Shown in pieces: positions 15,213 to 27,794 of a stretch of 35,434 nt of DNA; within the stretch, counting starts at the first letter, position 1; the number at the start of each line of letters is the position of its first letter. Location of the stretch: contig QHUT01000077.1 in NCBI GenBank assembly GCA_003222055.1, positions 1 through 35,434 of the forward strand. Direction: 5' to 3'. Below the pieces are notes generated by a model. It was not told where the DNA came from, searched no databases, and worked only from the letters and a program-made list of their open reading frames with translations. The translations under genes and the position numbers were made by a program. This DNA comes from Gemmatimonadota bacterium (GTDB lineage: Bacteria > Gemmatimonadota > Gemmatimonadetes > Gemmatimonadales > GWC2-71-9).

Positions 15213-16331
15213 ATGGCAACCTGGCACCGCCTCGGCGACACGGCCGAGCTGCGCGCGCGCGTTCCCTGCGCCGTCAAGCTCGACCGCTGGTCGGTCGCCC
15301 TCTTCTTCCACGATGGCCAGTTCCGGGCGATCGGCAACACCTGCAACCACAAGGGGGGACCGCTCGCCGAAGGCCGCCTGCACGGCGAGTTCGTGATGTG
15401 CCCCTGGCACGCCTGGGAGTACAGCGTGATCACGGGCAAGGGGCCCGAAGGCTACGATGAAGAGCAGGTCCCCGTGTTCGCGGTGGAAGAGCGACCCGAC
15501 GGCGTGTACGTGCAGACCCCGCCGGTGATGCCCCGCAAGCTCGTCAAGCACAAGCCGTCGCACCTGCTCGAGCAGCACCTGAAGCCCGTGGGCGCCCCGG
15601 CGCGCGTGCTCCTCATCTCCACCACGGCGATGGACGACGTCAACCCGCGCTTCTCCACGTCCGATGCCCTGCTGGAGCATGCGCTCGACCAAGCGAAACG
15701 CCGGGGCGCGGACACCCAGTACGTCAAGCTGCGCGACCTCAAGTTCCGGCACTGCGAGGGCAACTACTCCAAGGCGGCGCACGCCTGCACCTGGCCCTGC
15801 GCCATCACGGAGCGCGATCCGGAGGACCAGCTCGCCACCGTGTACGAAGGACTGGTGCACTGGGCGGACGTCGTGCTGCTCGGCACGCCCATCCGCTGGG
15901 GCAACGCGTCGTCGCTGTATTACAAGATGATCGAGCGGCTGAACTGCGTGCAGAACCAGGTGACCATCCGCAACCAGGTGTTGATCAAGAACAAGGTCGC
16001 GGCGTTCATCATCACCGGCGGTCAGGACAACATCCAGGCCGTGGCGGGCGCGATGTTCACCTTCTGGGCCGAGCTCGGCTTCGTGTTCCCGCCGTTCCCG
16101 TTCATCGCCCACTCGCGCGGCTGGGACGCGGAGGACATGCAGAACAACGTGCGGCAGGTGAAGATGAGCGACACGCTCAAGGAAGCCGCCTACGAGTTGC
16201 TCGACCGCGCGCTCGACTTCTGGTCGATCATCGATCGGCACAAGGCGGAGATGGACAAGCCCATGGAGCGGGCCGGCCGCAAGGCGAGCACCCTGCCCGA
16301 GCCGGAAGAGAGCGAGGAGATGACCGTATGA
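15213..16331 (+). CDS. Rieske ferredoxin fused to a flavodoxin-fold FMN reductase
   Basis: 372 residues with two redox domains in one chain. Residues 1-105 form a Rieske domain: CNH (C44, H46) and CPWH (C63, H66) give the Cys2His2 ligands of a 2Fe-2S cluster, spaced as in dioxygenase-type ferredoxins. From about residue 128 (ARVLLISTTA) to 320 there is a flavodoxin-like NAD(P)H:FMN oxidoreductase domain, with the insert CEGNYSKAAHACTWPC and the flavin-binding GTPIRWGNASS. Electrons would run from a pyridine nucleotide through FMN to the Rieske cluster or the reverse. The protein ends in a charged tail (EPEESEEMTV). It overlaps the NTF2-like gene by 4 bases (ATGA), so the two may form one small pathway. 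The exact substrate is unknown. Confidence 0.85.
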   Translation: MATWHRLGDTAELRARVPCAVKLDRWSVALFFHDGQFRAIGNTCNHKGGPLAEGRLHGEFVMCPWHAWEYSVITGKGPEGYDEEQVPVFAVEERPDGVYVQTPPVMPRKLVKHKPSHLLEQHLKPVGAPARVLLISTTAMDDVNPRFSTSDALLEHALDQAKRRGADTQYVKLRDLKFRHCEGNYSKAAHACTWPCAITERDPEDQLATVYEGLVHWADVVLLGTPIRWGNASSLYYKMIERLNCVQNQVTIRNQVLIKNKVAAFIITGGQDNIQAVAGAMFTFWAELGFVFPPFPFIAHSRGWDAEDMQNNVRQVKMSDTLKEAAYELLDRALDFWSIIDRHKAEMDKPMERAGRKASTLPEPEESEEMTV

Positions 16332-17356: not shown

Positions 17357-18578
17357 AAATTCTGTCCAGATGACGGTCCCGCCGCCGGGCAATCCAATAG
17401 AGCGGGATCCCCATCAACAACGTCACCCCACTCCCCGTCCACGCCGCACCGATGGATCGCGTCCGCGCGACCCAGCCCCACGCCGTCTGTCCCAGCACGC
17501 CGCCGCTGCTCGCGAACATCGAGTCGAGAGAGATGATCGTCGCCCGCTGGGCCGAGGGGATGTGCTCATTGAGGTAGGCTTGCTTGACGGGCATCGCGAG
17601 CCCGACGGCCACCCCGTAGAGCAGATACAGCGATACGACGGCGAAGAAGTTCGTGAGCAGGCCACAGGCCACCACGAGCACGGCCTGGGCCCCCGTCGAG
17701 AGCATGAGCACTCCGGTCCGCGTCCGCACGACACGGGAGACCGGCGCGACGAGCGCGTTGCCCACGATGAGGCTCAGGCCGACCAGCGCGCTGATCACCC
17801 CGTCCACCCATACGACGTCGCGTCCCAGCAGATCGAGGAAGTAGCGCTGCCAGCTGTAGAAACCGAAGATCATGAAGCTCATCGAGACGAGCGACGCCAG
17901 CATCACGGGCCGGAGGACCGGACTGCGCAGTCCGTAGCGCAAACCCGCGACGAAAACGCGCCGGAGCTCGGGCCCCACGCGGCGCAGCTCCAGTGCCCGC
18001 GGCGTGAATCCCAGCTCCGGCATGCGAAACCACGCCAGCAGGAACAGCGGCACGACGAGACTTGCGCGCACCAAGTACGGGATGTAGAGCCTGACGTCGC
18101 CCAGCAAGCCGCCGCCGATCGTCCCGACCAGCATCGCGGCCCCGAAGTACATCTGGCCCCGTGCGAACACGGGCTCCAGCGGGCGCGCAAAGCCCGTGGC
18201 CTTGAGGGCGTCCACCAGCCATGCATCCACGGCGCCCGTGTAGAACGTGTACCCCAGCCCGAGCAGCACCGAGATCCACATGAACCCCCCGAACCCCCAC
18301 CCGCGCCAGGCGCAGGTGACGTACAACAACGTCGTGGTGAACAGGGTGACGAGACACAACAGCAGCGACACGCGTCGTCCTACGGTATCCGCCACGACGC
18401 CGGTCGGAATCTCGAACACCATGGAGCCGAGCGTGAACGCGGCGTTGGTCAAGAGCACCTGCTGGATGTCGAGCCCGGCCCCCATCTTGAACAGGGTATC
18501 GACCCCCCAGATGAGCGACATCGCCAGGTTGAACAGTCCCGTGATGGCGAAATAGGTGCGGATGATCCGGTCGCTCAC
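17352..18578 (-). CDS. MFS transporter
   Basis: 408 residues, about 12 membrane helices. Helices 2-3 carry FEIPTGVVADTVGRRVSLL, the motif A form typical of the MFS subgroup with GxxADxxGRR. The GTG at 18578 is preferred over the longer frame (to 18605) because its GTGA overlaps the stop of the DMT gene by 4 bases, as in every other junction of this operon. It is the last gene of a six-gene operon that begins with the EgtD-like methyltransferase. The substrate is unknown; export of a product of the operon is possible. The TAG stop is supplied by repeat element B. Confidence 0.88.
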   Translation of the reverse strand: MSDRIIRTYFAITGLFNLAMSLIWGVDTLFKMGAGLDIQQVLLTNAAFTLGSMVFEIPTGVVADTVGRRVSLLLCLVTLFTTTLLYVTCAWRGWGFGGFMWISVLLGLGYTFYTGAVDAWLVDALKATGFARPLEPVFARGQMYFGAAMLVGTIGGGLLGDVRLYIPYLVRASLVVPLFLLAWFRMPELGFTPRALELRRVGPELRRVFVAGLRYGLRSPVLRPVMLASLVSMSFMIFGFYSWQRYFLDLLGRDVVWVDGVISALVGLSLIVGNALVAPVSRVVRTRTGVLMLSTGAQAVLVVACGLLTNFFAVVSLYLLYGVAVGLAMPVKQAYLNEHIPSAQRATIISLDSMFASSGGVLGQTAWGWVARTRSIGAAWTGSGVTLLMGIPLYWIARRRDRHLDRIS

Positions 18579-19441
18579 GCGGCCACCACCGCCGTGTCGC
18601 GCCACGACTTGAGCGCCGTCGCCGTCAGGATCACGGCGCCCCCGATGGCCGCCAGCGGCCCCGGCGTCTCACCGTGCGCGAGCCACGCCCACACGGGGCT
18701 CAGCACCGGCTCGACCAGCAAGAACAGCGAGGCCTCGAGCGCGGGTACGCGGGTGATGGCGCGCGACAGGAACACGTAGGCGAGGCCGAGCTGAAACACG
18801 CCGAGATAGATCACGATCAGCCAGTCGGCGCCCCGGCCGGCTGCGACAGGCAAGGCTCCGGGCAGGCACACGAGGAACACGATCAGGTTGCCGCACGCGG
18901 CGGCAGCAGCGATCGGGCCGTGACCCGCGCCGTATTCATGCCCTTGGCGCGCCAGCCAGCGGTAGCCGGTGACCGTGAACGCCCACGCCACCGCGCTCCC
19001 CGCGGCGAGCACGTTGCCGACAAAAGGATCGGGCGCCGTGGCGAAGCGTCGGTGCCCGCCCACGAACAGCAGGGCCAGGCCCACCGCGAGCACCCCCATG
19101 AACGCCAGGTCCGCCGCTCGCACCCGCTCCTTCAGGAGCCAGGGCGCCAGCGCGACCACGAACAGCGGGTTCGTCGCCTGGAGGAATACCGTATCGGCGG
19201 CGGTCGTCAGCTTGTTCGCGAACACGAACAGCAGACCCGCGGCCGCGTAGGCGATGCCTACGAGCCCGACGCGCCAGCTCCACCGCTGCCGGGCCTCGGG
19301 GATCAGCACGAGGATCGCGAGCATCGCCACCAGAGCACGGAACGCGGCGATCTGCGAGGCGCCGAACGCGCACCACTTGATAGCCGCGCCCGCGGTCGAG
19401 AAGCAGAGCGCGGCGAGCACCAGCTGCAGGCGCGCCTTCAC
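18575..19441 (-). CDS. EamA-type drug/metabolite (DMT) permease
   Basis: 288 residues with ten predicted hydrophobic helices and the internal duplication of EamA proteins: an N-terminal half starting LQLVLAALCFSTAGAAIKW and a second half near FVGNVLAAGSAVAWAFTVTGYRW. PALEASLFLLVEPVLSPVWAWLAHGE near the end is the conserved EamA helix 9 region. Such permeases usually export amino acids or small metabolites. It starts at GTG 19441, overlapping the binding-protein stop by 4 bases. Its place behind a betaine transporter suggests that it handles a related compound, but the substrate cannot be read from sequence. Confidence 0.88.
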   Translation of the reverse strand: MKARLQLVLAALCFSTAGAAIKWCAFGASQIAAFRALVAMLAILVLIPEARQRWSWRVGLVGIAYAAAGLLFVFANKLTTAADTVFLQATNPLFVVALAPWLLKERVRAADLAFMGVLAVGLALLFVGGHRRFATAPDPFVGNVLAAGSAVAWAFTVTGYRWLARQGHEYGAGHGPIAAAAACGNLIVFLVCLPGALPVAAGRGADWLIVIYLGVFQLGLAYVFLSRAITRVPALEASLFLLVEPVLSPVWAWLAHGETPGPLAAIGGAVILTATALKSWRDTAVVAA

Positions 19442-20337
19442 GGCAGGTTGATCTTCAGCCAGTCACGCGCGATGGTCGCGATGTCCTCGTGCGCCACGTC
19501 CGCGCGGGCGTTGAGCCGCCGCATCTCGCTATCGGAGATGCGGCCCGCGAGCTCTTCGAGGGCCGCACCGACGCCCGAGTGCCGCGCGAGCGTCGCCTGC
19601 CGGATCACCGGTGCGGCTTCGTATGGCGGGAAATAATGGCGGTCGTCTTCCAGCACCACGAGGTCGAGCGCCTGAATCTGGCCGTCGGTGGAGTTCCCGG
19701 CGATCACGTCCACCTTCCCCTGAGCGAGGGCGCGATAGGTGAGCCCCAGGTCCATCGCGATCGGGGGAGACGCGAACCGCAGGCCGTACGTGGCCGCGAG
19801 CCCCCGGAAGCCGTCGGCTCGCTCGAGGAACTCGTAGCCGAATCCCGCCCTCCAGCGAGGCGCGAGGCGCGCCAGGTCGGAGATGCGCCTCAGGCCATCG
19901 CGTGCAGCGTCGCGGCGCCGCACGGTGATGGCGAACGTGTTGTTGAACCCGAGCGGTTTGCCCCACACGAGCCCGAAGCGCTGCAGGTAGTCCCTCACCA
20001 CGGAGCGATAGACGCTGTCGGGAACGGCCACCGGTACGTGCTTCAGGACGGCGGTGTACGCCGTCCCCGTGTACTCCACGTAGAGGTCGATCTGGCCCGC
20101 CGTGATGGCGTGGTGGCAGACGAACGTGCCGCCCAAGTGGAAGCGGCGCTCGACCGGCAGCCCGGCACGTCGCTCGATCTGCTGCGCCACGATCTCGCCC
20201 AGCAGGTCTGACTCGGTGAAGTTCTTGGAGCCCACCACGATCCGGTCGCGATGGGCGCATCCCGCGAGGAGCAGCGCGGCCGCGACGACCCACGCACCGC
20301 CCCGCACCGCCCTCCACCGCCCTCCACCGCCCGTCAT
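19438..20337 (-). CDS. OpuC/ProX-type betaine-binding lipoprotein
   Basis: 299 residues from ATG 20337 (ATGA overlap with the permease stop). The lipobox LLLAGC marks a lipoprotein signal. The mature part begins IVVGSKNFTESDLLGEIVAQQIE, the classical start of the OpuBC/OpuCC/ProX family, and continues with DLYVEYTGTAYTAVL, NNTFAITVRR and VDVIAGNSTDGQIQALDLVVLEDD. These proteins capture quaternary amines such as glycine betaine, choline, carnitine or ergothioneine for an ABC importer. The N-terminal MTGGGGRWRAVRGG is encoded by a 10-base tandem repeat. With the EgtD-like enzyme first in the operon, a histidine-betaine-like or other methylated amine is a plausible ligand; this is inference. Confidence 0.92.
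   Translation of the reverse strand: MTGGGGRWRAVRGGAWVVAAALLLAGCAHRDRIVVGSKNFTESDLLGEIVAQQIERRAGLPVERRFHLGGTFVCHHAITAGQIDLYVEYTGTAYTAVLKHVPVAVPDSVYRSVVRDYLQRFGLVWGKPLGFNNTFAITVRRRDAARDGLRRISDLARLAPRWRAGFGYEFLERADGFRGLAATYGLRFASPPIAMDLGLTYRALAQGKVDVIAGNSTDGQIQALDLVVLEDDRHYFPPYEAAPVIRQATLARHSGVGAALEELAGRISDSEMRRLNARADVAHEDIATIARDWLKINLP
20295..20334. repeat. Four tandem 10-base repeats at the start of the binding-protein gene
   Basis: CACCGCCCCG, CACCGCCCTC, CACCGCCCTC and CACCGCCCGT stand in tandem (20295-20334). On the gene strand the unit is GGTGGAGGGC. It encodes the glycine/arginine-rich residues just after the initiation codon. The same decamer type (GGTAGAGGGC) occurs at 33016-33055 and 33168-33202. 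Confidence 0.7.
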
Positions 20338-20972
20338 GTGGCCCGCCACGCGAACCGTCGCTCCGCCAGGCCCAGCAGGCCGTCCGCCGCGAGGGCCATC
20401 AGCGCGGCGGGCAGCGCGCCGGCCAGAATCAGGGTGTTGTCCACCACCGCCACGCCGCGGAAGATGTACACGCCGAGCCCGCCGGCGCCGATGGCGGCCG
20501 CGATCGTCGCCGTCCCCACGCTCACCACGGTGGCGACGCGCACGCCCGCCAGGATCACGCTCAGCCCGAGCGGGAGCTCGACCTGCGTGAGGAGCTGCCA
20601 GTCGGTCATGCCCATCCCCCGGCCGGCCTCGCGCACCGCCGGGTCCACGCCGGCGAGCCCCGTGTAGGTGTTCCGGACGATCGGGAGCAGCGCGTAGACG
20701 ACCAGCGCGACGATCGCCGTCGTCGCCCCGATCCCGCCGATGAAGGGAAGCGGGATTAGAAACCCGAACAGGGCAAGGCTCGGGATCGTCTGGAATACAT
20801 TGGCGAGTCCCAGCACCGGCGCCCGCCAGGCGGGCCGCCGCGTGAGCGCGATGCCGACCGGCACCCCCAGGACGATCGCGATGGCGGTCGAGCTCGCGAC
20901 CAGCGACACATGCTGTCCCACGAGTCCCAGAACTTCCCCGGAATTGCGGGCGTAGAACTCCCAGAGACTCAC
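20334..20972 (-). CDS. OpuB/ProW-type ABC transporter permease
   Basis: 212 residues with about five or six membrane helices. VSLVASSTAIAIVLGVPVGIALTRRP, NVFQTIPSLALFGFLIPL and EAGRGMGMTDWQLLTQVELPLGLSVILAGVRVA are hallmarks of OpuBB/OpuCB permeases; the last one contains the EAA loop that contacts the ATPase. It forms the membrane channel for betaine-type compounds together with the ATPase and binding lipoprotein encoded next to it. GTG 20972 overlaps the ATPase stop by 4 bases. A single permease gene is present, so it probably works as a homodimer, unlike systems with two permease subunits. Confidence 0.94.
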   Translation of the reverse strand: MSLWEFYARNSGEVLGLVGQHVSLVASSTAIAIVLGVPVGIALTRRPAWRAPVLGLANVFQTIPSLALFGFLIPLPFIGGIGATTAIVALVVYALLPIVRNTYTGLAGVDPAVREAGRGMGMTDWQLLTQVELPLGLSVILAGVRVATVVSVGTATIAAAIGAGGLGVYIFRGVAVVDNTLILAGALPAALMALAADGLLGLAERRFAWRAT

Positions 20973-21721
20973 GCCGCCGCCATGAATGCTTTGGATTCTG
21001 GATGGTCGCTCTGGCGGAACTCCTGCGGCGTCCCCAGGAACACGAGCCTTCCCTGTTGCATGAGACCGATCCGGGTCGCGAGCATCAGCCCTTCACGCAC
21101 GTCGTGCGTGACGAACACCATCGCCTGGCCGAGGCGCTGCTTCAGGGTCTGGAACTCGCGTTGCAGCTCCACGCGCGTAATCGGGTCCAGCGCGCCGAAC
21201 GGCTCGTCCAGCAGGAGCAGGGGCGGGTCGGCTGCGAGGGCGCGTGCCACGCCCACGCGCTGGCGCTGCCCGCCCGAGAGCTGGTGCGGATAGCGCAAGG
21301 CGAACGTGTCGGCGTCCAGGCCCACCACCGCCAGGAGCTCGCGCACCCGTTCCACGATGCGCGGCGGCTCCCACCCCTCGAGCCGCGGCACGAGCCCCAC
21401 GTTCCGCGCCACCGTGAAGTGGGGGAACAACCCCACCTCCTGGATCACGTACCCGATGCGGCGTCGTAAACGGGTCGCCGCCAGATCGCGCGCACGCGCT
21501 CCGGCGATTCGCACCTCGCCCGTGGTCGGCTCGAGCAGACGATTGATGAGCTTCAGCGTGGTGGTTTTGCCCGATCCGCTGCGCCCGAGCAGTACGAGGG
21601 TCTCGCCTGCACCTACGGTGAAGGAGACATCGTGCACCAGGAAGCGTCCGCTTCCCGCTTCCCCTTTCCCCTTTCCCGGCAGTTCATAGCCGAGCCCCTG
21701 CACTTCGAGCGGCGTCGTCAC
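20969..21721 (-). CDS. OpuA/ProV-type ABC transporter ATPase
   Basis: 250 residues from GTG 21721, whose GTGA overlaps the methyltransferase stop. Walker A GRSGSGKTTT, Q-loop VIQEVGLFPHFTV, signature LSGGQRQRV, Walker B LLLLDEPFGALD and the H-loop VTHDVREG are complete, so it should hydrolyse ATP for the betaine-type importer. It lacks the CBS domains seen in some ProV/OpuCA proteins; it ends soon after PQEFRQSDHPESKAFMAAA. An unusual glycine/lysine-rich stretch (PGKGKGEAGSG) interrupts the first strand region and is encoded by a purine-rich repeat. The longer upstream frame is an antisense-like shadow of the methyltransferase gene. Confidence 0.94.
   Translation of the reverse strand: MTTPLEVQGLGYELPGKGKGEAGSGRFLVHDVSFTVGAGETLVLLGRSGSGKTTTLKLINRLLEPTTGEVRIAGARARDLAATRLRRRIGYVIQEVGLFPHFTVARNVGLVPRLEGWEPPRIVERVRELLAVVGLDADTFALRYPHQLSGGQRQRVGVARALAADPPLLLLDEPFGALDPITRVELQREFQTLKQRLGQAMVFVTHDVREGLMLATRIGLMQQGRLVFLGTPQEFRQSDHPESKAFMAAA
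21651..21679 (-). repeat. In-frame purine tract in the ABC ATPase gene
   Basis: On the gene strand this is a run of GGGAAAGGGGAAAGGGGAAG type, repeating a GGGGAAA unit. It encodes PGKGKGEAGSG between the first strand (LEVQGLGYEL) and FLVHDVSFTVGAGE. ABC ATPases of this type do not normally have an insert there. Confidence 0.45.
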
Positions 21722-22656
21722 GCGGGGGAAGCGAGCGCCATGAGGAACCGCTGGTCGTCGCTCGCGGCCTGCCAGCGCACGGCCAGCCCCGCGTCGGACA
21801 GGATCCGCAGGAAGCTGTCCGCGGCGTACTTGTACGAGTGACCCATCTCGAGCCGCTCGCCGCGACCGATGCGCACCGCTTCGCCGCCCATCCAGGCTTC
21901 CACGGCGCGCGTCGCGCTGAAGTGCTTGGCGATGAGGTGCAGACCGGGTAGCCGCGGATCGTCTCTGGCCTCGAACACGAGCGCGCCGTCCGCGTCGCCG
22001 ATCCCGACCGAGTGGAGCGGCGCCCATGCGAACCGGCGGTTGAGCGGGTTGTCGTAGCCCGCGACGGTGGCGTCGCCGGCATACAGCTCGCCGTCCACGA
22101 GGAGCGCGTCACCGGGACGCAACAGCTGCCGCAGCTGGCGGGCGGCGGCGATGGGATCGAACGCGCCGAGGGTGTTTCCGAGCAGCATCACGAGGCGCGG
22201 CGGCGCTTCCGGCTCGGCGGCAAGCGAGAGGAGCTGCTCGGGCATGGTAAAGTCGGCCTTGATTCCCTGGGCCGCGATGCCGGCGCGCAGCGCCCCGCCG
22301 CACGCCATTTCGAGCAGCGCCTGACTGGTGTCCACCGGGACGTACGCGCTGCGCGCGCCCTGCTCGCGCAGCGCCTCGAGCAGCAGCAGGTCCTTGTCGC
22401 CCTGTCCCGCGCCGAGGCTCAGGACCTCGAGAGGCGCGGGCGGGTAGAGTCGGGCCAGCTCGCGAGCCGTGCGCGCGATCAACGAGCGCGAGCGCACGAA
22501 ATTGCGATATGCGCCGTCCGAGCACAGGGCGAGCCAGGCCCGCACCGACAGCGGCAGCCAGTAGAAGAATTTCTCCGGCAGACTCCGCGCCTCGAAGGCC
22601 GTGACGAACTCGGCCGCGAGCTGGTTCTCGGTGAGCAGCACGTGAATCGCGATCAT
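21718..22656 (-). CDS. EgtD-like SAM-dependent methyltransferase
   Basis: 312 residues from ATG 22656; the frame continues to 22710 but crosses the promoter region. A class I methyltransferase of the histidine-specific (Methyltransf_33) type: EVLSLGAGQGDKDLLLLEAL is motif I, YVPVDTSQALLEMA binds SAM, VMLLGNTLGAFDP is the post-core loop, and EMGHSYKY lies near the end. True EgtD makes hercynine from histidine. Here the N-terminal EYYPTRTE-like motif is absent, the substrate-binding Asn of TxGN is Ala (TLGAF) and the Glu of the final ExS motif appears to be Gly (GHS). The substrate may therefore be another amine. It is the first gene of an operon with a betaine ABC transporter and two permeases, and divergent from the peptide operon. 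The motif comparison is from memory. Confidence 0.75.
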   Translation of the reverse strand: MIAIHVLLTENQLAAEFVTAFEARSLPEKFFYWLPLSVRAWLALCSDGAYRNFVRSRSLIARTARELARLYPPAPLEVLSLGAGQGDKDLLLLEALREQGARSAYVPVDTSQALLEMACGGALRAGIAAQGIKADFTMPEQLLSLAAEPEAPPRLVMLLGNTLGAFDPIAAARQLRQLLRPGDALLVDGELYAGDATVAGYDNPLNRRFAWAPLHSVGIGDADGALVFEARDDPRLPGLHLIAKHFSATRAVEAWMGGEAVRIGRGERLEMGHSYKYAADSFLRILSDAGLAVRWQAASDDQRFLMALASPA

Positions 22657-22677
22657 AGGCGCGTTGAGAGTTACCGG

Positions 22678-22706
22678 TTGACGGGTGTGGCGGCAACCCA
22701 TAGGAT
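22678..22706 (+). promoter_or_regulatory. Sigma70-type promoter of the peptide/MNIO operon
   Basis: TTGACG (22678-22683), a 17-base spacer and TAGGAT (22701-22706) give a strong consensus match, with transcription expected near 22713, about 40 bases before the peptide start. On the opposite strand TTGCCG (complement of 22691-22696) and TAACTC (complement of 22668-22673), also 17 bases apart, could form a weaker overlapping promoter for the methyltransferase operon. The whole divergent gap is 96 bases, so both directions may respond to one regulator. Confidence 0.6.
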
Positions 22707-22740
22707 TCACCGACTAGCTGTTTTGCTTGGCTCATCCGTT

Positions 22741-22748
22741 AAGGAGGA
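22741..22748 (+). promoter_or_regulatory. Strong ribosome binding site of the 30-residue peptide gene
   Basis: AAGGAGGA, with the AGGAGG core at 22742-22747, 5 bases before ATG 22753. It is one of the best Shine-Dalgarno matches in the window and decides that the short frame is translated. Confidence 0.8.
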
Positions 22749-22752
22749 AGCG

Positions 22753-22845
22753 ATGCAGATCGTCGAAACGCAGGAACTCGTGCCCAGCTGTCATCGTCCC
22801 GAGATCGTCGAGACGGCCGAGCTGGTACCTACCTGCCACTCCTGA
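22753..22845 (+). CDS. Putative RiPP precursor peptide with two Cys-His repeats
   Basis: 30 residues in two imperfect halves: IVETQELVPSCH (residues 3-14) and IVETAELVPTCH (18-29), joined by RPE, with a final Ser. Each unit ends in Pro-Ser/Thr-Cys-His. Strong initiation signals, position first in an operon and the 13-base gap to the next start argue for real translation. The repeated unit suggests two core segments, or a core and a leader of common origin, modified at Cys by the MNIO enzyme two genes downstream. MNIO enzymes are known to modify cysteines in short precursor peptides (methanobactin, 3-thiaglutamate and bufferin pathways). I know no described family with this sequence. Alternatives: a metal-binding peptide or a regulatory leader peptide. 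Confidence 0.75.
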   Translation: MQIVETQELVPSCHRPEIVETAELVPTCHS

Positions 22846-22858
22846 GGGAGCGGCTCTG

Positions 22859-23986
22859 ATGCGCCCGGGGGCCCGGCCTGACGTCGGGCCCCCTCCGCGT
22901 TTCCGGACCTCCGAGCCACGGCTCGGGTTCGGGGCCTGGGCGGTAGGTGGAGCGGCCTGGGGCCCCGCCACCCACGAGCGCGACCGTTTCGCAGCCGTCG
23001 CGCGAGCCGTGGAGCGCGGCGTCACGTTTTTCGATACGGCCCCGGCATACGGCGACGGCGCCTCGGAGGCCCTGCTCGGTCGGGCACTCCGCGCGGATCG
23101 CGACCGCGTCGCCATCGCCACCAAGGTCGGACCGCGCGATGACCCGCGCACCTCGCTCGAAGCGTCACTGCGCCGTCTGCGAACCGATTATGTAGACCTG
23201 GTGCAGCTGCACGAGGCGATCGAGCGCTGGGAGTGGCGGCTCGACGACCTGCACCGGCTCCAGGACGCCGGCAAGGCGCTCGCGATCGGGCTGTGCAACG
23301 CCACGCACCTCCAGCTCGCCCGTGCGCTCGAGCTCGTGCCCCTGGCCGCCTACCAGGGACCCTACAACCTGTTCGATCGCGACGTGGAGCAACGCGAGCT
23401 GCCGCTGTGCCGCGAACGCGGGCTGGCCTTCCTCGCCTATCGGCCACTCGCCGCCGGCCTCCTGACGGGCAAGTACACCGCACCGCCGCCGTTCCCGGCG
23501 GGCGACCACCGCGCTGGACTCTACTGGTTCAAGGGCCGGGAGTTCGCCCGGCGCCGCACCGCGATCGAGCGGCTCGAGCCCCTCGCCCGTCGCCGCGCCA
23601 CGTCGCTCGGCGCTCTCGCCCTGGCGTGGCTATTGCAGCGCCCCGGGGTCTCGATCGTGCTCGCGGGGGCGCGGACCGCAGCCCAGGTGGACCAGAACCT
23701 CGGAGCGGCCGACCTCGGCCTCACGCCCGACGACGTGGCCGCCGTCGACGCCGTGGTGGGCGACGTGTTCCGTCCGGTGCGCGCCACCGAGCGCGCCCGC
23801 GTCCTCGCCGCGGACTGGGGCGTTCGGGAGCGCCATGTCGTCGAGCGGCTGGACGGCTCCAAGAGCTACGAAGCGATCGCGGCCGAATGGACGGACCGCG
23901 GCGGCCCGCCGATGATCGCGGCGCAGGTCAAGGTCTTGTGTGACCAACTCGCCGAGCAGGGGTTACTAGTAGCGGACGACGGATGA
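22859..23986 (+). CDS. Aldo/keto reductase with extra C-terminal winged-helix-like module
   Basis: 375 residues from ATG 22859; the longer frame crosses the peptide gene. Residues 18-300 form a complete aldo/keto reductase barrel: FFDTAPAYG (D59, Y64), IATKVG (K89) and VQLHEA (H118) supply the catalytic tetrad, and the NADPH site is near VLAGARTAAQVDQN. After the barrel come about 75 extra residues, ending in ERLDGSKSYEAIAAEW and VKVLCDQLAEQGLL (327-370). This helix-helix-wing pattern resembles PqqD-type RiPP recognition elements or DUF2063-type tails and is not part of normal reductases. It could bind the precursor peptide and reduce a carbonyl or imine made by the MNIO enzyme; this is inference. 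Its stop overlaps the MNIO start by 4 bases. Confidence 0.85.
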   Translation: MRPGARPDVGPPPRFRTSEPRLGFGAWAVGGAAWGPATHERDRFAAVARAVERGVTFFDTAPAYGDGASEALLGRALRADRDRVAIATKVGPRDDPRTSLEASLRRLRTDYVDLVQLHEAIERWEWRLDDLHRLQDAGKALAIGLCNATHLQLARALELVPLAAYQGPYNLFDRDVEQRELPLCRERGLAFLAYRPLAAGLLTGKYTAPPPFPAGDHRAGLYWFKGREFARRRTAIERLEPLARRRATSLGALALAWLLQRPGVSIVLAGARTAAQVDQNLGAADLGLTPDDVAAVDAVVGDVFRPVRATERARVLAADWGVRERHVVERLDGSKSYEAIAAEWTDRGGPPMIAAQVKVLCDQLAEQGLLVADDG

Positions 23987-24774
23987 CGAACCGGCTGATG
24001 GTTGGCGCGTTCTACAACCCACACCTGGGGGCGGAGCTGGCCCAGGCGGAGGGGATCGACCATCTGGCAATGGCGGATCCGCCGGGGGCGACGGACCCGT
24101 GGTGGCCGGCGATCCGCGAGCGCTACACGCTGCTGCTCCACGACTACCTGGGCCAGCTGTCCGAGCCACTCGACGAGCGGTCGATCGGGAGGGCGCGGGC
24201 GCTGGCGGAGCTGTACGGCTCGCCGTGGGTGGCGGAGCACTTCCAGTGTCTCCACACCGCGGACGGCGCGTACAATCTGAACTATGTTTTCCCGCCGCTG
24301 TACACCGAAGAGTTCCTGGACCGGTTCGTGCGTAACGCGACCGCGCTCAAGGCGCGCCTGGACCAGCCACTGGTCATGGAGAACATTCCCGGCTTCTTCG
24401 ACGTTGCGGCGAGCCAGCTGCCGGAGCCGCTCTGGCTGCGGCGCTTCTTCGAGGCGACCGGGGCGGGCTTCCTGCTCGATCTCCCGCACGTCTGGCTCGA
24501 GGCCCACTATCACGACCGCAACCCGGAGGCGTGGCTCGCCGAATTCCCGCTCGAGCATGTGGTGGAGCTGCACGTCGCCGGCGTGGAGGAGGACCGCGAC
24601 CTGCGCGGGCCTTGGATCGCGCCGGCCGAGCCCTCGGACGAGATGCTTGCCTTTGCCGCACATGCGGTGAGCCGCTGCCCACGAGCCAAGGCCGTCACGT
24701 TCGATGCGTTTTCTCCTTCTCTCACACCCGACGTCCTGTTCCGAAGCGTGGAACGGATTCGGGGAGCGCTGTGA
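23983..24774 (+). CDS. MNIO (DUF692) multinuclear iron oxidative enzyme
   Basis: 263 residues, a TIM-barrel of the DUF692 family, which uses two or three non-heme irons and O2 to rearrange cysteine or other residues of RiPP precursors (MbnB, TglH and others). Likely metal ligands: H53 (LLLHDY), H86 (VAEHFQ), E133-N134 (VMENIPG), D166 and H169 (LLDLPHVW), H197 (ELHVAG) and D241 (TFDAF). VMENIPG and ELHVAG are close to the family consensus LLEN and EIHLAG. It is a little shorter than many relatives. It overlaps the reductase and the next gene by 4 bases each. With a two-Cys peptide encoded first in the operon, its substrate is very probably that peptide. Family call is from motif recognition; function on the peptide is inference. 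Confidence 0.82.
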   Translation: MTNRLMVGAFYNPHLGAELAQAEGIDHLAMADPPGATDPWWPAIRERYTLLLHDYLGQLSEPLDERSIGRARALAELYGSPWVAEHFQCLHTADGAYNLNYVFPPLYTEEFLDRFVRNATALKARLDQPLVMENIPGFFDVAASQLPEPLWLRRFFEATGAGFLLDLPHVWLEAHYHDRNPEAWLAEFPLEHVVELHVAGVEEDRDLRGPWIAPAEPSDEMLAFAAHAVSRCPRAKAVTFDAFSPSLTPDVLFRSVERIRGAL

Positions 24775-25973
24775 AACCGCTCGCGCTCGCGCTGCTCACG
24801 TTGCTCTCGGCCGACGTGGTGATTCCCGCCGGCACCCGCATCCCGATCCGGTTCGTGCAACGGATTACCAGTGGCAGGGACACCGTCGGGACGGGCGTGC
24901 TGGTGCAGACGATGGGGGCCCTGGTGCAGGATTCCTGCGTCCTGGTCCCGCCCTACGTGCGGGCGAAGGGGCGGGTCGTGGTCTCGCAGGGTGGCGGCCG
25001 GTTCGGTCGGCACGGCCGGCTGGGGCTGCGGTTCGACTCCTTGGAAGTGCGCTCGGGTCATTGGGTACCGATCGCCGGGGTGCTCGACACGCTCGAGTAC
25101 GCCAAGCCGGGCGCGGTCACCGACTCCGGGCTCGTGTCCAGCGGCAGGACCTCCGTCGGTGGCCTCGGCAAGAAGCTCGTGCCGGCGGGTGTCGTGGCGG
25201 CCGTCGATTTCGACGTGATCCCGGTGACGTTGCTCGGCGGATTCTCGCTGTTACGTCGGGGGCCCCCGGTGCGCATCCAGGCGGGCGAGACCGGCGGCAT
25301 CCGGCTCACCGAGCCGCTCGTTCTCCCAGGTCGGGAGCGGTGCGACCTCGTGGCGACACATCGCGAGCTGATCGAGATGCCGGCGCTGCCGAAGTTCGTC
25401 CCGCGCTCGGAGAACCGCTCGGGGACCGTGCTGGGAGATCCCTTCAACGTGCTGCTGCTCGGGACGTGGGCCGAAATCGACAGCGCGTTTCGAGCGGCCG
25501 GCTGGCTCCCCGCGCAAAAGCGGTCCGTCCTCGCCGTCACGCGGGAGGTAACCGCCGCGATCGCGAGCCGGCCGGCGATCACCGCCCCCGTCAGCACGCA
25601 GTACTTCGAGGGACGGCCGCAGGACCTCGCGTACGAGCTGGCGGGTCCCAACGTCCGGATTCGTCACCACATCCGGATCTGGCTGCTCGACAGTCTCTCG
25701 CTCGTCTGGGTCGGCGCCGCGAACAAGGACGTCGGGGTGATTTTCAAGCCGTGGGAGCCGCAGGCGACGCATCGCATCGAGCCGCACATCGATTGGGAGC
25801 GGGACCGGGTGGTGCGGGATGTCGAGGCGAGCGGGTGCGGCGACTTGCTGGACTACATGCGTCTTCCCGGCGCGGTCACCGAAGCGCGAAACGTCTCCGG
25901 CCAAAAGGTCGTCTCCGACGGGCGAACAGCCGTGGTGCGGTTGCGCCCCTGCAGCCCGGCGGACATGCCATGA
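24771..25973 (+). CDS. LssY_C-type domain protein with signal-like N-terminus
   Basis: 400 residues from GTG 24771 (GTGA overlap). The N-terminus KPLALALLTLLSADVVIPAGT looks like a short signal or anchor. Residues 20-150 resemble a beta-rich domain of the kind that begins with GTRIPIRFVQRI, common in secreted proteins. The C-terminal half has GDPFNVLLLGTWAEIDSAFRAAGWLPA, STQYFEGRPQDLAYE and RIRHHIRIW, which mark the LssY C-terminal domain seen next to DedA/PAP2-like membrane proteins. No enzymatic activity is established for that domain. In this operon it may be the periplasmic partner or carrier of the modified peptide, but nothing in the sequence proves a role. Its stop overlaps the next start by 4 bases. 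Confidence 0.7.
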   Translation: MKPLALALLTLLSADVVIPAGTRIPIRFVQRITSGRDTVGTGVLVQTMGALVQDSCVLVPPYVRAKGRVVVSQGGGRFGRHGRLGLRFDSLEVRSGHWVPIAGVLDTLEYAKPGAVTDSGLVSSGRTSVGGLGKKLVPAGVVAAVDFDVIPVTLLGGFSLLRRGPPVRIQAGETGGIRLTEPLVLPGRERCDLVATHRELIEMPALPKFVPRSENRSGTVLGDPFNVLLLGTWAEIDSAFRAAGWLPAQKRSVLAVTREVTAAIASRPAITAPVSTQYFEGRPQDLAYELAGPNVRIRHHIRIWLLDSLSLVWVGAANKDVGVIFKPWEPQATHRIEPHIDWERDRVVRDVEASGCGDLLDYMRLPGAVTEARNVSGQKVVSDGRTAVVRLRPCSPADMP

Positions 25974-26752
25974 ACCACCCGTCGAGCGATCGCGCGCTCC
26001 AGGACGACGTGATTCGCGCGCTCGCCGATGCGCCGTATCGTGCTTCGCCCCGCTGGCGGCGTCGGAACCTCGCCGATCCCTACCGCGTCGAGCGCTATGC
26101 GCGCTTCCTGGCGCGCCACTTCTATTTCGAGCGCATCGTCCAGTTCTTCAAGTATTCCCGCGCGCTGGCGCGCATCACCGGGCGGCCTCCGGAGGCAGTC
26201 TGTAAAGGGGATGCCTTCGACCTCCTGCTCCCGAGCGTCGTGCTCGGCAGCCAGGAGACGGCGCAGGCGGTGGCCCGGCTGGTCGTGGCACACGTCGGCG
26301 CGGCGCGCGCCCCGATTCCGTACCTCGCGGACCTGCTCCGATACGAAGAAGCGATGATGCTGGTCGAGGCGGGCCCCCGCATCTGGCGGGATGATACGCC
26401 CACCGAGGGAGCGCCCAGCCGTGCGCGGCACGCTCCCGAGAAGGTGGAGGGAACGGCGCTGTTGGAGCTGGATTTCGATCTGCCCGCCGTCCTGCCCAAG
26501 CTGCTCCAGCCCTGGACCGAGGTACCGCAGGCGGCCGCACGGCCCACCCAGCTGCTCGTCGCGCGATCACCGCACGGGCGCGTGGCGGTGGCGCGAAGCG
26601 ACGCTGGCATAGCCGCCGTGGTACAGCTGGCCGACGGGAAACGGACGCTCGAGCAGCTCGCCGCGGGCGCGGGCCTCCCCGTGGAAACGCTCGAGGCTAC
26701 GCTGCAGGGGCTCGTGGAGCTGGGCGCCGTGCGATTCCCGACCGGCAGCTGA
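25970..26752 (+). CDS. Putative MNIO partner protein (DUF2063/TglI/BufC-like)
   Basis: 260 residues. The N-terminal helical part (1-140) ends in PYLADLLRYEEAMMLVE, which recalls the PYLADLARLE motif of DUF2063-type partners of DUF692 enzymes. A middle part (GTALLELDFDLPAVL, TQLLVARSPHGRVAVAR) matches the beta segment of those partners, and a C-terminal winged-helix-like module follows (VVQLADGKRTLEQLAAGAGLP to LQGLVELGAV, 217-254). Such partners bind the precursor peptide and present it to the MNIO enzyme. The C-terminal module resembles the reductase tail three genes upstream. Last gene of the peptide operon; a 68-base gap follows. The assignment rests on remembered motifs and context, not on a search. 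Confidence 0.6.
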   Translation: MNHPSSDRALQDDVIRALADAPYRASPRWRRRNLADPYRVERYARFLARHFYFERIVQFFKYSRALARITGRPPEAVCKGDAFDLLLPSVVLGSQETAQAVARLVVAHVGAARAPIPYLADLLRYEEAMMLVEAGPRIWRDDTPTEGAPSRARHAPEKVEGTALLELDFDLPAVLPKLLQPWTEVPQAAARPTQLLVARSPHGRVAVARSDAGIAAVVQLADGKRTLEQLAAGAGLPVETLEATLQGLVELGAVRFPTGS

Positions 26753-26820
26753 TCGGCCTGGGTCGCCGCGGGAAAGCAGTCCGCGTAGCTTCCGAACAAC
26801 CGCTCATCCCGGAGCCGCCT

Positions 26821-27270
26821 GTGACCACCCAATACGAGAGCGCCGATCTGCTGCTCAAGCTGTACGACCTGCGCCGCGAGGCAGTGATGCGCAAGGCCCG
26901 CGCCTGGTTCCGTGCGGACTTTCACCCCGCGACCGCGGCGGAAATACTCACCATGTATCGCGGCAAGAACAGCGCGCCGTACCGCATGGTGACGACGTAC
27001 TGGAACATGGCCGCCGCGCTCGTGCTCCACGGCGCGATCGACGAGCAGATGTTCGCCGACACGAACGGCGAGCACGTCATGGTGTACGGGCGCCTCGAGC
27101 CCCACCTCGCCGAGCTGCGCGCCGCGCTCAAGAACCCCGGCTACCTGGACCAGCTGGAGAAGGTGATCCTGCGGATGCCCGACGCCCAGGCGCGGCTCGC
27201 CCGGGTGCGGGGCACGGCCGCGACGGCCGGAAAGCCCAGAGGGGCGAAGCGCCCCCGGAGGGTCGCGTGA
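26821..27270 (+). CDS. Conserved hypothetical protein (DUF4760-like)
   Basis: 149 residues from GTG 26821. An all-alpha soluble protein with YESADLLLKLYDLRREAVMRKARAWFRADFHP, MVTTYWNMAAALVLHGAIDEQMFADTN and EPHLAELRAALKNPGYLDQLEKV. Similar sequences with a LYDLRRE start and a WNMAA...GAIDEQMF centre are familiar from Acidobacteria and Gemmatimonadota-type genomes, but no function is known to me. It overlaps the DinB-like gene by 4 bases (GTGA). It ends in a basic tail (KPRGAKRPRRVA) that might bind nucleic acid or just be disordered. It may belong to a separate operon from the peptide locus, though the 68-base gap leaves read-through possible. Confidence 0.7.
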   Translation: MTTQYESADLLLKLYDLRREAVMRKARAWFRADFHPATAAEILTMYRGKNSAPYRMVTTYWNMAAALVLHGAIDEQMFADTNGEHVMVYGRLEPHLAELRAALKNPGYLDQLEKVILRMPDAQARLARVRGTAATAGKPRGAKRPRRVA

Positions 27271-27794
27271 CCGCCGCGGCCATCCCCCGGCCCCCCGCCG
27301 CGGAATACGCTCCGTACTACAGCAGGTACATCGACCGGGTCCCCGAGGGCGACCTGCTGCGGACGCTCGCGGATCAGGCCAGCGCGACGCAAACACTCAT
27401 CGGCGGCCTGTCCGAGGCCAACGCGCTGTACCGCTACGCCCCGGGGAAATGGAGCGTCAAGGAGGTGATCGGGCACGTCACCGACACCGAGCGCGTGTAC
27501 TCCTACCGCGCGCTGCGGTTCGCCCGCGGCGACGCCATCGCGCTCCCTGGCTTCGACGAGAACGCGTGGGTGCCGGCCGGGAACTTCGAAGCGCGTTCTC
27601 TCAAGGACCTGGCCGCCGAGCTCGACGCCGTGCGGCGCGCCACCATCGCTCTGTTCCGGGGCCTCGACGCCGCCGCCCTGGCGCGCCGCGGGACGGCGAG
27701 CGACAACGCGGTCTCGGTGCGCGCGATCGCCTGGATCATCGCGGGCCACGAGCGCCACCACGTGGCGCTGCTGCACGAGCGCTACAAAGTATGA
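27267..27794 (+). CDS. DinB-like four-helix metal-binding protein
   Basis: 175 residues. The DinB/YfiT-like bundle is shown by KWSVKEVIGHVTDTERVYSYR (first metal-ligand His in GHVTD) and by the C-terminal HERHHVALLHERY, whose histidines complete a three-His metal site. The superfamily includes bacillithiol and mycothiol S-transferases and maleylpyruvate isomerase, which use thiol cofactors and a divalent metal; many members have no known substrate. Here it may be a thiol transferase in detoxification. It overlaps both neighbours by 4 bases. Confidence 0.85.
   Translation: MTAAAIPRPPAAEYAPYYSRYIDRVPEGDLLRTLADQASATQTLIGGLSEANALYRYAPGKWSVKEVIGHVTDTERVYSYRALRFARGDAIALPGFDENAWVPAGNFEARSLKDLAAELDAVRRATIALFRGLDAAALARRGTASDNAVSVRAIAWIIAGHERHHVALLHERYKV

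Follow-up and report, generated by a model that had tools for sequence, protein, structure and literature searches.

Repeated Cys-His and predicted single Sec-His peptide units beside MNIO genes in four bacterial phyla: candidate precursors of a RiPP pathway

MNIO enzymes and their partner proteins oxidise Cys-containing peptides in known families. Among these, the TglHI pair has a C-terminal Cys as its target and uses a short preceding stretch for recognition (PMC9016710). It is inhibited by a synthetic Sec analogue of TglA-Cys (PMC9016710). A 2025 survey of the substrates and partner proteins of MNIOs describes in its text no precursor like the one reported here, and that text mentions neither methyltransferases, histidine, Acidobacteria nor Gemmatimonadetes (PMC12452194). 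Of the 119 families of prokaryotic selenoproteins inventoried in 2026, selenobacteriocin, from a radical-SAM system, is the sole RiPP (PMC13188914).

The window, meaning the whole 35,434-nucleotide stretch of Gemmatimonadota DNA that was analysed, encodes a 30-residue peptide, MQIVETQELVPSCHRPEIVETAELVPTCHS, at positions 22753 to 22845 (+). Just as the initial annotation described it, this frame contains two 12-residue units ending in Cys-His, IVETQELVPSCH (22759 to 22794, +) and IVETAELVPTCH (22804 to 22839, +). A Shine-Dalgarno AGGAGG (22742 to 22747, +) that is conserved in orthologues forms part of AAGGAGG, about 5 nt 5' of the ATG. The two units differ at 2 of 12 residues and at 11 of 36 bases. 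With 7.5 synonymous changes on 8.5 sites, which is near saturation, and 3.5 nonsynonymous changes on 27.5, the comparison bears out the old duplication that had been proposed. The repeat score of the peptide was 57, against a maximum of 40 in residue shuffles (0 of 20,000 reached it). Orthologues were present in 22 of 102 genomes of the window's own Gemmatimonadota family, from 8 genera (E<1e-12); all have 30 codons, and they share 83 to 100% identity. Their pooled pN/pS of 0.20 to 0.26, calculated from pairs that are not independent, indicates purifying selection and agrees with the earlier suggestion that the amino acids are under selection. This conservation and selection rule out a chance ORF. 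We also rejected a longer frame with a GTG start (22012 to 22845) as the real gene because relatives mostly lack an open frame immediately 5' of the Shine-Dalgarno and ATG (open frames of 37 to 138 aa). Neither Pfam nor NCBIfam contained a family model matching the peptide, and weak peptide matches at L023 to L030 (E 0.08 to 1) were taken as chance.

Downstream of the peptide and in the same direction, profile matches and locus comparison identified an aldo/keto reductase (AKR) gene (22859 to 23986, +), an MNIO gene (23983 to 24774, +; PF05114, the MbnB/TglH/ChrH family, 1.3e-26), a gene for an LssY_C-domain protein (24771 to 25973, +) that is inserted between MNIO and partner only in the window's genus, and a gene for a 260-residue protein (25970 to 26752, +). 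Starts and stops overlap at 23983 to 23986, 24771 to 24774, and 25970 to 25973. The last of these genes lies hidden inside a longer open frame and was missed by naive ORF calling; it was exposed by comparing ORFs across loci. An ORF on the opposite strand (26122 to 27396, −) that appeared conserved at the protein level between loci proved to be the antisense of this gene. The encoded protein matched the ApyI profile at 5e-6 and the HvfC profile at 0.03, both below cut-off, and gave no DUF2063 match. AlphaFold2 models of the MNIO and of this protein had mean pLDDT values of 88 and 89. The best PDB matches of the MNIO model were TglH (8hci/8hi7, 1.1e-15), followed by 3bww and MbnB, while those of the second model were TglI (8hi7_A, 4e-6) and then NGO1945 (3dee). 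Given the ApyI profile and the modelled fold, 25970 to 26752 encodes a predicted MNIO partner with an RRE-like domain. When the MNIO was aligned with TglH and MbnB, the Asn of the D-x-x-N motif was replaced by His and the later W-H-D motif was absent, and the iron site may therefore differ. The AKR has a conserved C-terminal extension of about 60 residues; that this might be a copy of the partner's RRE/winged-helix end was not supported (hhalign probability 1.7). Since the AKR is absent outside Gemmatimonadota, we rejected it as a core member.

Divergent from the peptide gene is an operon that begins with an EgtD-like SAM methyltransferase (Methyltransf_33; 21718 to 22656, −) and continues with an ABC ATPase of the quaternary-ammonium/betaine type (20969 to 21721, −), a choline/betaine-type permease (20334 to 20972, −), and an OpuAC-type substrate-binding protein (19438 to 20337, −). 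In the window's genus, an EamA-type transporter gene (18575 to 19441) is joined to the ABC operon. The methyltransferase scored 70.6 bits against the EgtD model TIGR03438, below its cut-off of 290.9. It keeps the Tyr, Ser284, and Lys positions of EgtD, while the equivalents of Asn166 (A, G, or I) and Glu282 (G, N, or S) are changed. As we take the latter two to be histidine-binding positions, their loss suggests that the substrate is not simply free histidine. No canonical EgtD over the TIGR03438 cut-off was found in any of 12 member genomes. The binding protein resembles binders of betaine, choline, and ergothioneine, matching EgtUC at 1.8e-45 and choline/betaine binders equally well or better. 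Elsewhere in the window, 15213 to 16331 encodes a Rieske ferredoxin domain fused to an NADPH-dependent FMN reductase/flavodoxin-like domain.

Alignment of upstream regions revealed a conserved promoter-like block, TTGACG-N17-TAGGAT (22678 to 22706, +). In Gemmatimonadota, positions 22678 to 22752 form a strongly conserved block, TTGACGGGTG.GACGGCAACCCGTAGGAT...GCCGTC, within which an inverted repeat (GACGGC/GCCGTC) flanks the −10 element. This repeat is a possible operator common to both divergent operons. Directly after the peptide is a putative GC-rich hairpin (22867 to 22893, +; z only −1.57) that overlaps the start of the AKR gene.

With the MNIO profile we collected 38 loci from Gemmatimonadota, Acidobacteriota, Planctomycetota, and Nitrospirota, and most of those with sequence available 5' of the MNIO have a similar small gene there. 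Taken from 23 precursors, 51 units gave the pattern [ILV]-[VIL]-[ED]-x-x-E-[VL]-x-P-[TAS]-[C/U]-H, where U is an in-frame TGA discussed below. Pro and His occur in all 51 units and Cys or Sec in 50; the single Ser is in one unit of a three-unit homologue (L138). The precursors are 18 to 65 aa long and end in CH, CH(S/Q/R), or UH(N). Counted per peptide, the units number one to four: Cys forms have two in Gemmatimonadota (four in L080 and L129), three in Acidobacteriota, and two in Nitrospirota. The initial annotation had regarded single-unit relatives lacking Cys as evidence against its reading. Other phyla do have single-unit homologues, but in them the Cys position is a TGA and has not been lost. 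Made from sequence alone, that annotation had not reached the variation in unit number, the TGA form, the MNIO partner, or the EgtD-like methyltransferase with the quaternary-ammonium importer.

Most loci share a core of precursor, MNIO, partner, and EgtD-like methyltransferase. This module is kept in Gemmatimonadota, Acidobacteriota, and Nitrospirota, and the Planctomycetota locus has the peptide, MNIO, and methyltransferase genes together with an ORF that looked partner-like on inspection by eye. Linked ABC importer genes accompany the module in Gemmatimonadota, Nitrospirota, and several Sec-form Acidobacteriota; they are unlinked in Cys-form Acidobacteriota loci and in the Planctomycetota locus (L093). 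Loci from the window's taxonomic family keep the window's arrangement where contigs allow; two loci of genus g3 have their ABC genes either elsewhere or past the contig end. The module includes no conserved, dedicated peptidase. Few genomes have the MNIO subfamily: 18 of 395 from Gemmatimonadota, 4 of 396 from Acidobacteriota, and 6 of 200 from a single acidobacterial order. For the phyla to which the Nitrospirota and Planctomycetota members belong, the counts are 1 of 246 and 1 of 294, and each of these is the query genome itself. With a PF05114 MNIO beside a short Cys precursor in four phyla, these are predicted genes of MNIO-modified RiPPs, and the precursor role first proposed for the window's peptide gains from homologous units that adjoin an MNIO and partner in all four. 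We consider it highly probable that MQIVETQELVPSCHRPEIVETAELVPTCHS belongs to a family of MNIO precursors. Judged from gene content and sequence, the family is one of cytosolic, leaderless precursors with one to four copies of a 12-mer ending P-T-[Cys/Sec]-His, predicted to be served by an MNIO like TglH and a partner like TglI.

The Cys-His pairs had been put forward as two modification sites. The homologous units beside MNIO and partner genes end in P-[TSA]-[C/U]-H, with the one Ser excepted, and we regard the Cys/Sec-His pair as the likely modified site. In the pathway that we propose, each unit would be a separate core: the partner would recognise its conserved E-x-x-E-[VL]-x-P segment, after which the neighbouring Cys-His or Sec-His pair would be oxidatively modified by the iron-dependent MNIO. 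Proteolysis would then free an S- or Se-modified product containing His, either an amino acid or a dipeptide, which the EgtD-like enzyme would N-methylate. The OpuAC-type importer would recover the resulting betaine. This logic would be that of pearlins (TglA/TglHI), with the peptide as a workbench, aimed at a redox molecule like ergothioneine or selenoneine. Some lineages that read UGA as Sec would use a single Sec unit, and others two to four Cys units. Together, the invariant His and the genes for an EgtD-like enzyme and a betaine-type importer suggest a product of the methylated S/Se-histidine type. Taken as a whole, a scaffold or precursor role in a new MNIO-dependent RiPP pathway is the best explanation and one that we think fairly probable. 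A methylated betaine-type product is a tentative element, for which we estimate a little less than an even chance. A more specific chemistry, in which the MNIO transfers S or Se from encoded Cys or Sec to the imidazole ring of the His that follows and the freed residue is N-methylated and salvaged by the betaine-type importer, is doubtful.

The same genes could instead make a metallophore. Here the MNIO and partner would form a thiooxazole or oxazolone-thioamide from each Cys, the heterocycle and His would chelate copper or another metal, and the methyltransferase would merely trim. Conversion of Cys to a heterocycle is the commonest MNIO chemistry, BufB and HvfB are among the best NCBIfam profiles for this MNIO, and paired Cys-His sites fit metal binding. 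We nevertheless consider a metallophore unlikely, if credible, because the module has no conserved signal peptide, DoxX, TonB receptor, P-type ATPase, or other metal gene, and the partner is ApyI/TglI-like and not clearly DUF2063. In addition, Sec would be odd, though conceivable, in a soft-metal chelator, and the betaine-type importer and EgtD-like enzyme would be left unexplained.

A closer parallel to the pearlins is carbon excision. The MNIO would remove the beta carbon of Cys or Sec to give 2-mercapto(seleno)glycine-His, which would later be methylated and released, with the sulfur staying at the former Cys. The models of MNIO and partner are indeed nearest TglH and TglI, the Cys or Sec lies at or near the C-terminus as in TglA-Cys, and a short recognition stretch precedes the Cys as for TglHI (PMC9016710). 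Yet we noticed no counterparts of tglB, tglE, or tglF, the invariant His after the Cys has no role in tgl, and the Sec analogue that inhibits TglHI (PMC9016710) is at odds with the natural Sec here. Carbon excision is improbable in our estimation.

The Sec forms come from eight loci that lack a Cys peptide 5' of the MNIO, seven from Acidobacteriota (L084, L086, L088, L089, L091, L112, L113) and one from Planctomycetota (L093). At this place, each has a gene of 18 to 28 codons ending in-frame in ...LVPT-TGA-CAC. If TGA were an ordinary stop, these peptides would end ...VPT and only the Cys forms would be functional, which would suit an extension of just one or two codons past the TGA. Against this, the TGA is at the exact position of the invariant Cys in the Cys forms, all eight loci have a His codon next, and in seven of them a stop follows directly, with one Asn codon intervening in L093. 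A SECIS-like hairpin occupies the same place in all eight loci; its apical loop starts about 20 to 25 nt after the TGA, with a G within the first two loop positions. In an alignment of six of these hairpins, 91.7% of cells pair, compared with at most 58% for every slid version, and changes on both sides occur at two pairs, although six hairpin sequences are few. The shuffle test on single hairpins was weak and mixed (P 0.002 to 0.34), and long GC hairpins are also found 3' of some Cys-form genes. Each of the eight draft genomes has at least one Sec-decoding component: SelA was found in seven of eight, tRNA-Sec above 70 bits in seven of eight, and SelB over cut-off in four of the six searched. 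By comparison, the Cys-form Nitrospirota genomes gave no SelB and no tRNA-Sec over cut-off, and one of them (G112) no SelA either. An ordinary stop is therefore very improbable. With UGA at the Cys position, a SECIS-like hairpin after it, and Sec genes in the genome, these are predicted bacterial selenoprotein genes, and the in-frame TGA is very probably read as selenocysteine. The window's own genome encodes SelA, SelB, and tRNA-Sec and thus probably decodes UGA as Sec, though its peptide uses Cys. Sec forms have one unit and Cys forms two to four. In the MNIO tree, the Planctomycetota Sec form groups with the Nitrospirota Cys forms, which implies at least two Cys/Sec switches; trees needing only one change made up 0% of bootstrap replicates.

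Two extra copies of the 30-residue peptide (L052:9452-9541 and L046:7709-7798) have no MNIO nearby; 3' of each come a GC hairpin and the gene for a DM13 (PF10517) electron-transfer protein. These orphans, and the GC hairpin directly 3' of the gene, could hint at a peptide that acts unmodified, serving as a regulatory leader of the operon or binding metal or a redox group as a small peptide; this is very improbable, as linkage to MNIO, partner, and methyltransferase is constant in several phyla, the units are conserved at the amino-acid level, and a genome with an orphan copy (G015) also has a full cluster elsewhere.

The peptide is apparently the founding member of an undescribed precursor family in four phyla, of a kind (MNIO RiPPs) already known. 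Among openly licensed papers, the literature on MNIOs with ergothioneine, EgtD, thiohistidine, or selenoproteins contained no description of it, and there we found no precedent for the Sec form among MNIO substrates. We know of no MNIO with selenocysteine as its natural substrate. The family adds to MNIO precursors a compact, encoded 12-residue unit in one to four copies, with natural Cys and Sec versions of one site. These versions of the Cys/Sec-His pair point to sulfur/selenium chemistry, and a natural Sec substrate would be a direct probe of sulfur handling by these iron enzymes. Were S/Se transfer true, this would be the first known MNIO with a natural Sec substrate, and its selenometabolite would derive from a Sec residue that had been translated. 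A methylated S/Se-histidine product would explain such antioxidants in soil Gemmatimonadota and Acidobacteriota that lack canonical EgtD. Exchange between one Sec unit and several Cys units, in whichever direction, is a testable case of selenium gain and loss in evolution.

Compared with known systems, methanobactins, bufferins, and oxazolins (MbnABC, BufABC, HvfABC) likewise have a Cys precursor modified by an MNIO and partner, and oxazolins have repeated Cys motifs, EGKCG (PMC12452194). Here the motif is PTCH, Sec forms exist, the partner is of another type rather than DUF2063 (PME-type 1), and there are no metal genes and no leader or signal peptide; precursors of 18 to 65 aa leave no room for a Sec-translocon signal. 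Among NCBIfam profiles, those of aminopyruvatides (ApyHI) fit the MNIO and its partner best, with both scores far below cut-off, but ApyHI acts on a C-terminal Asp, which is absent here, as are a P450 and a B12 radical SAM enzyme. The selenobacteriocin and thio(seleno)oxazole RiPPs (SbtM) also have a precursor with an in-frame TGA and a SECIS (PMC11002830, PMC13188914), although their enzyme is a radical SAM enzyme, not an MNIO, and their precursor, with an SGUG motif, is unrelated. Ergothioneine and selenoneine systems (EgtD, EgtUV, SenABC) share an EgtD-family fold, an OpuAC-type binding protein, and S or Se beside histidine, whereas the product here would be peptide-derived and the methyltransferase is far below the EgtD cut-off. 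Unlike in pearlins, where a PEARL enzyme (none among the window proteins scanned) adds Cys from tRNA to the peptide, the Cys here is encoded, followed by an invariant His in one to four units, has natural Sec forms, and is accompanied by an EgtD-like methyltransferase and betaine-type importer. What the locus has in common with pearlins and 3-thiaglutamate (TglA, TglHI) is a small, signal-less scaffold peptide with a C-terminal Cys, an MNIO with a TglI-type partner, and predicted folds of both enzymes that are nearest TglH and TglI.
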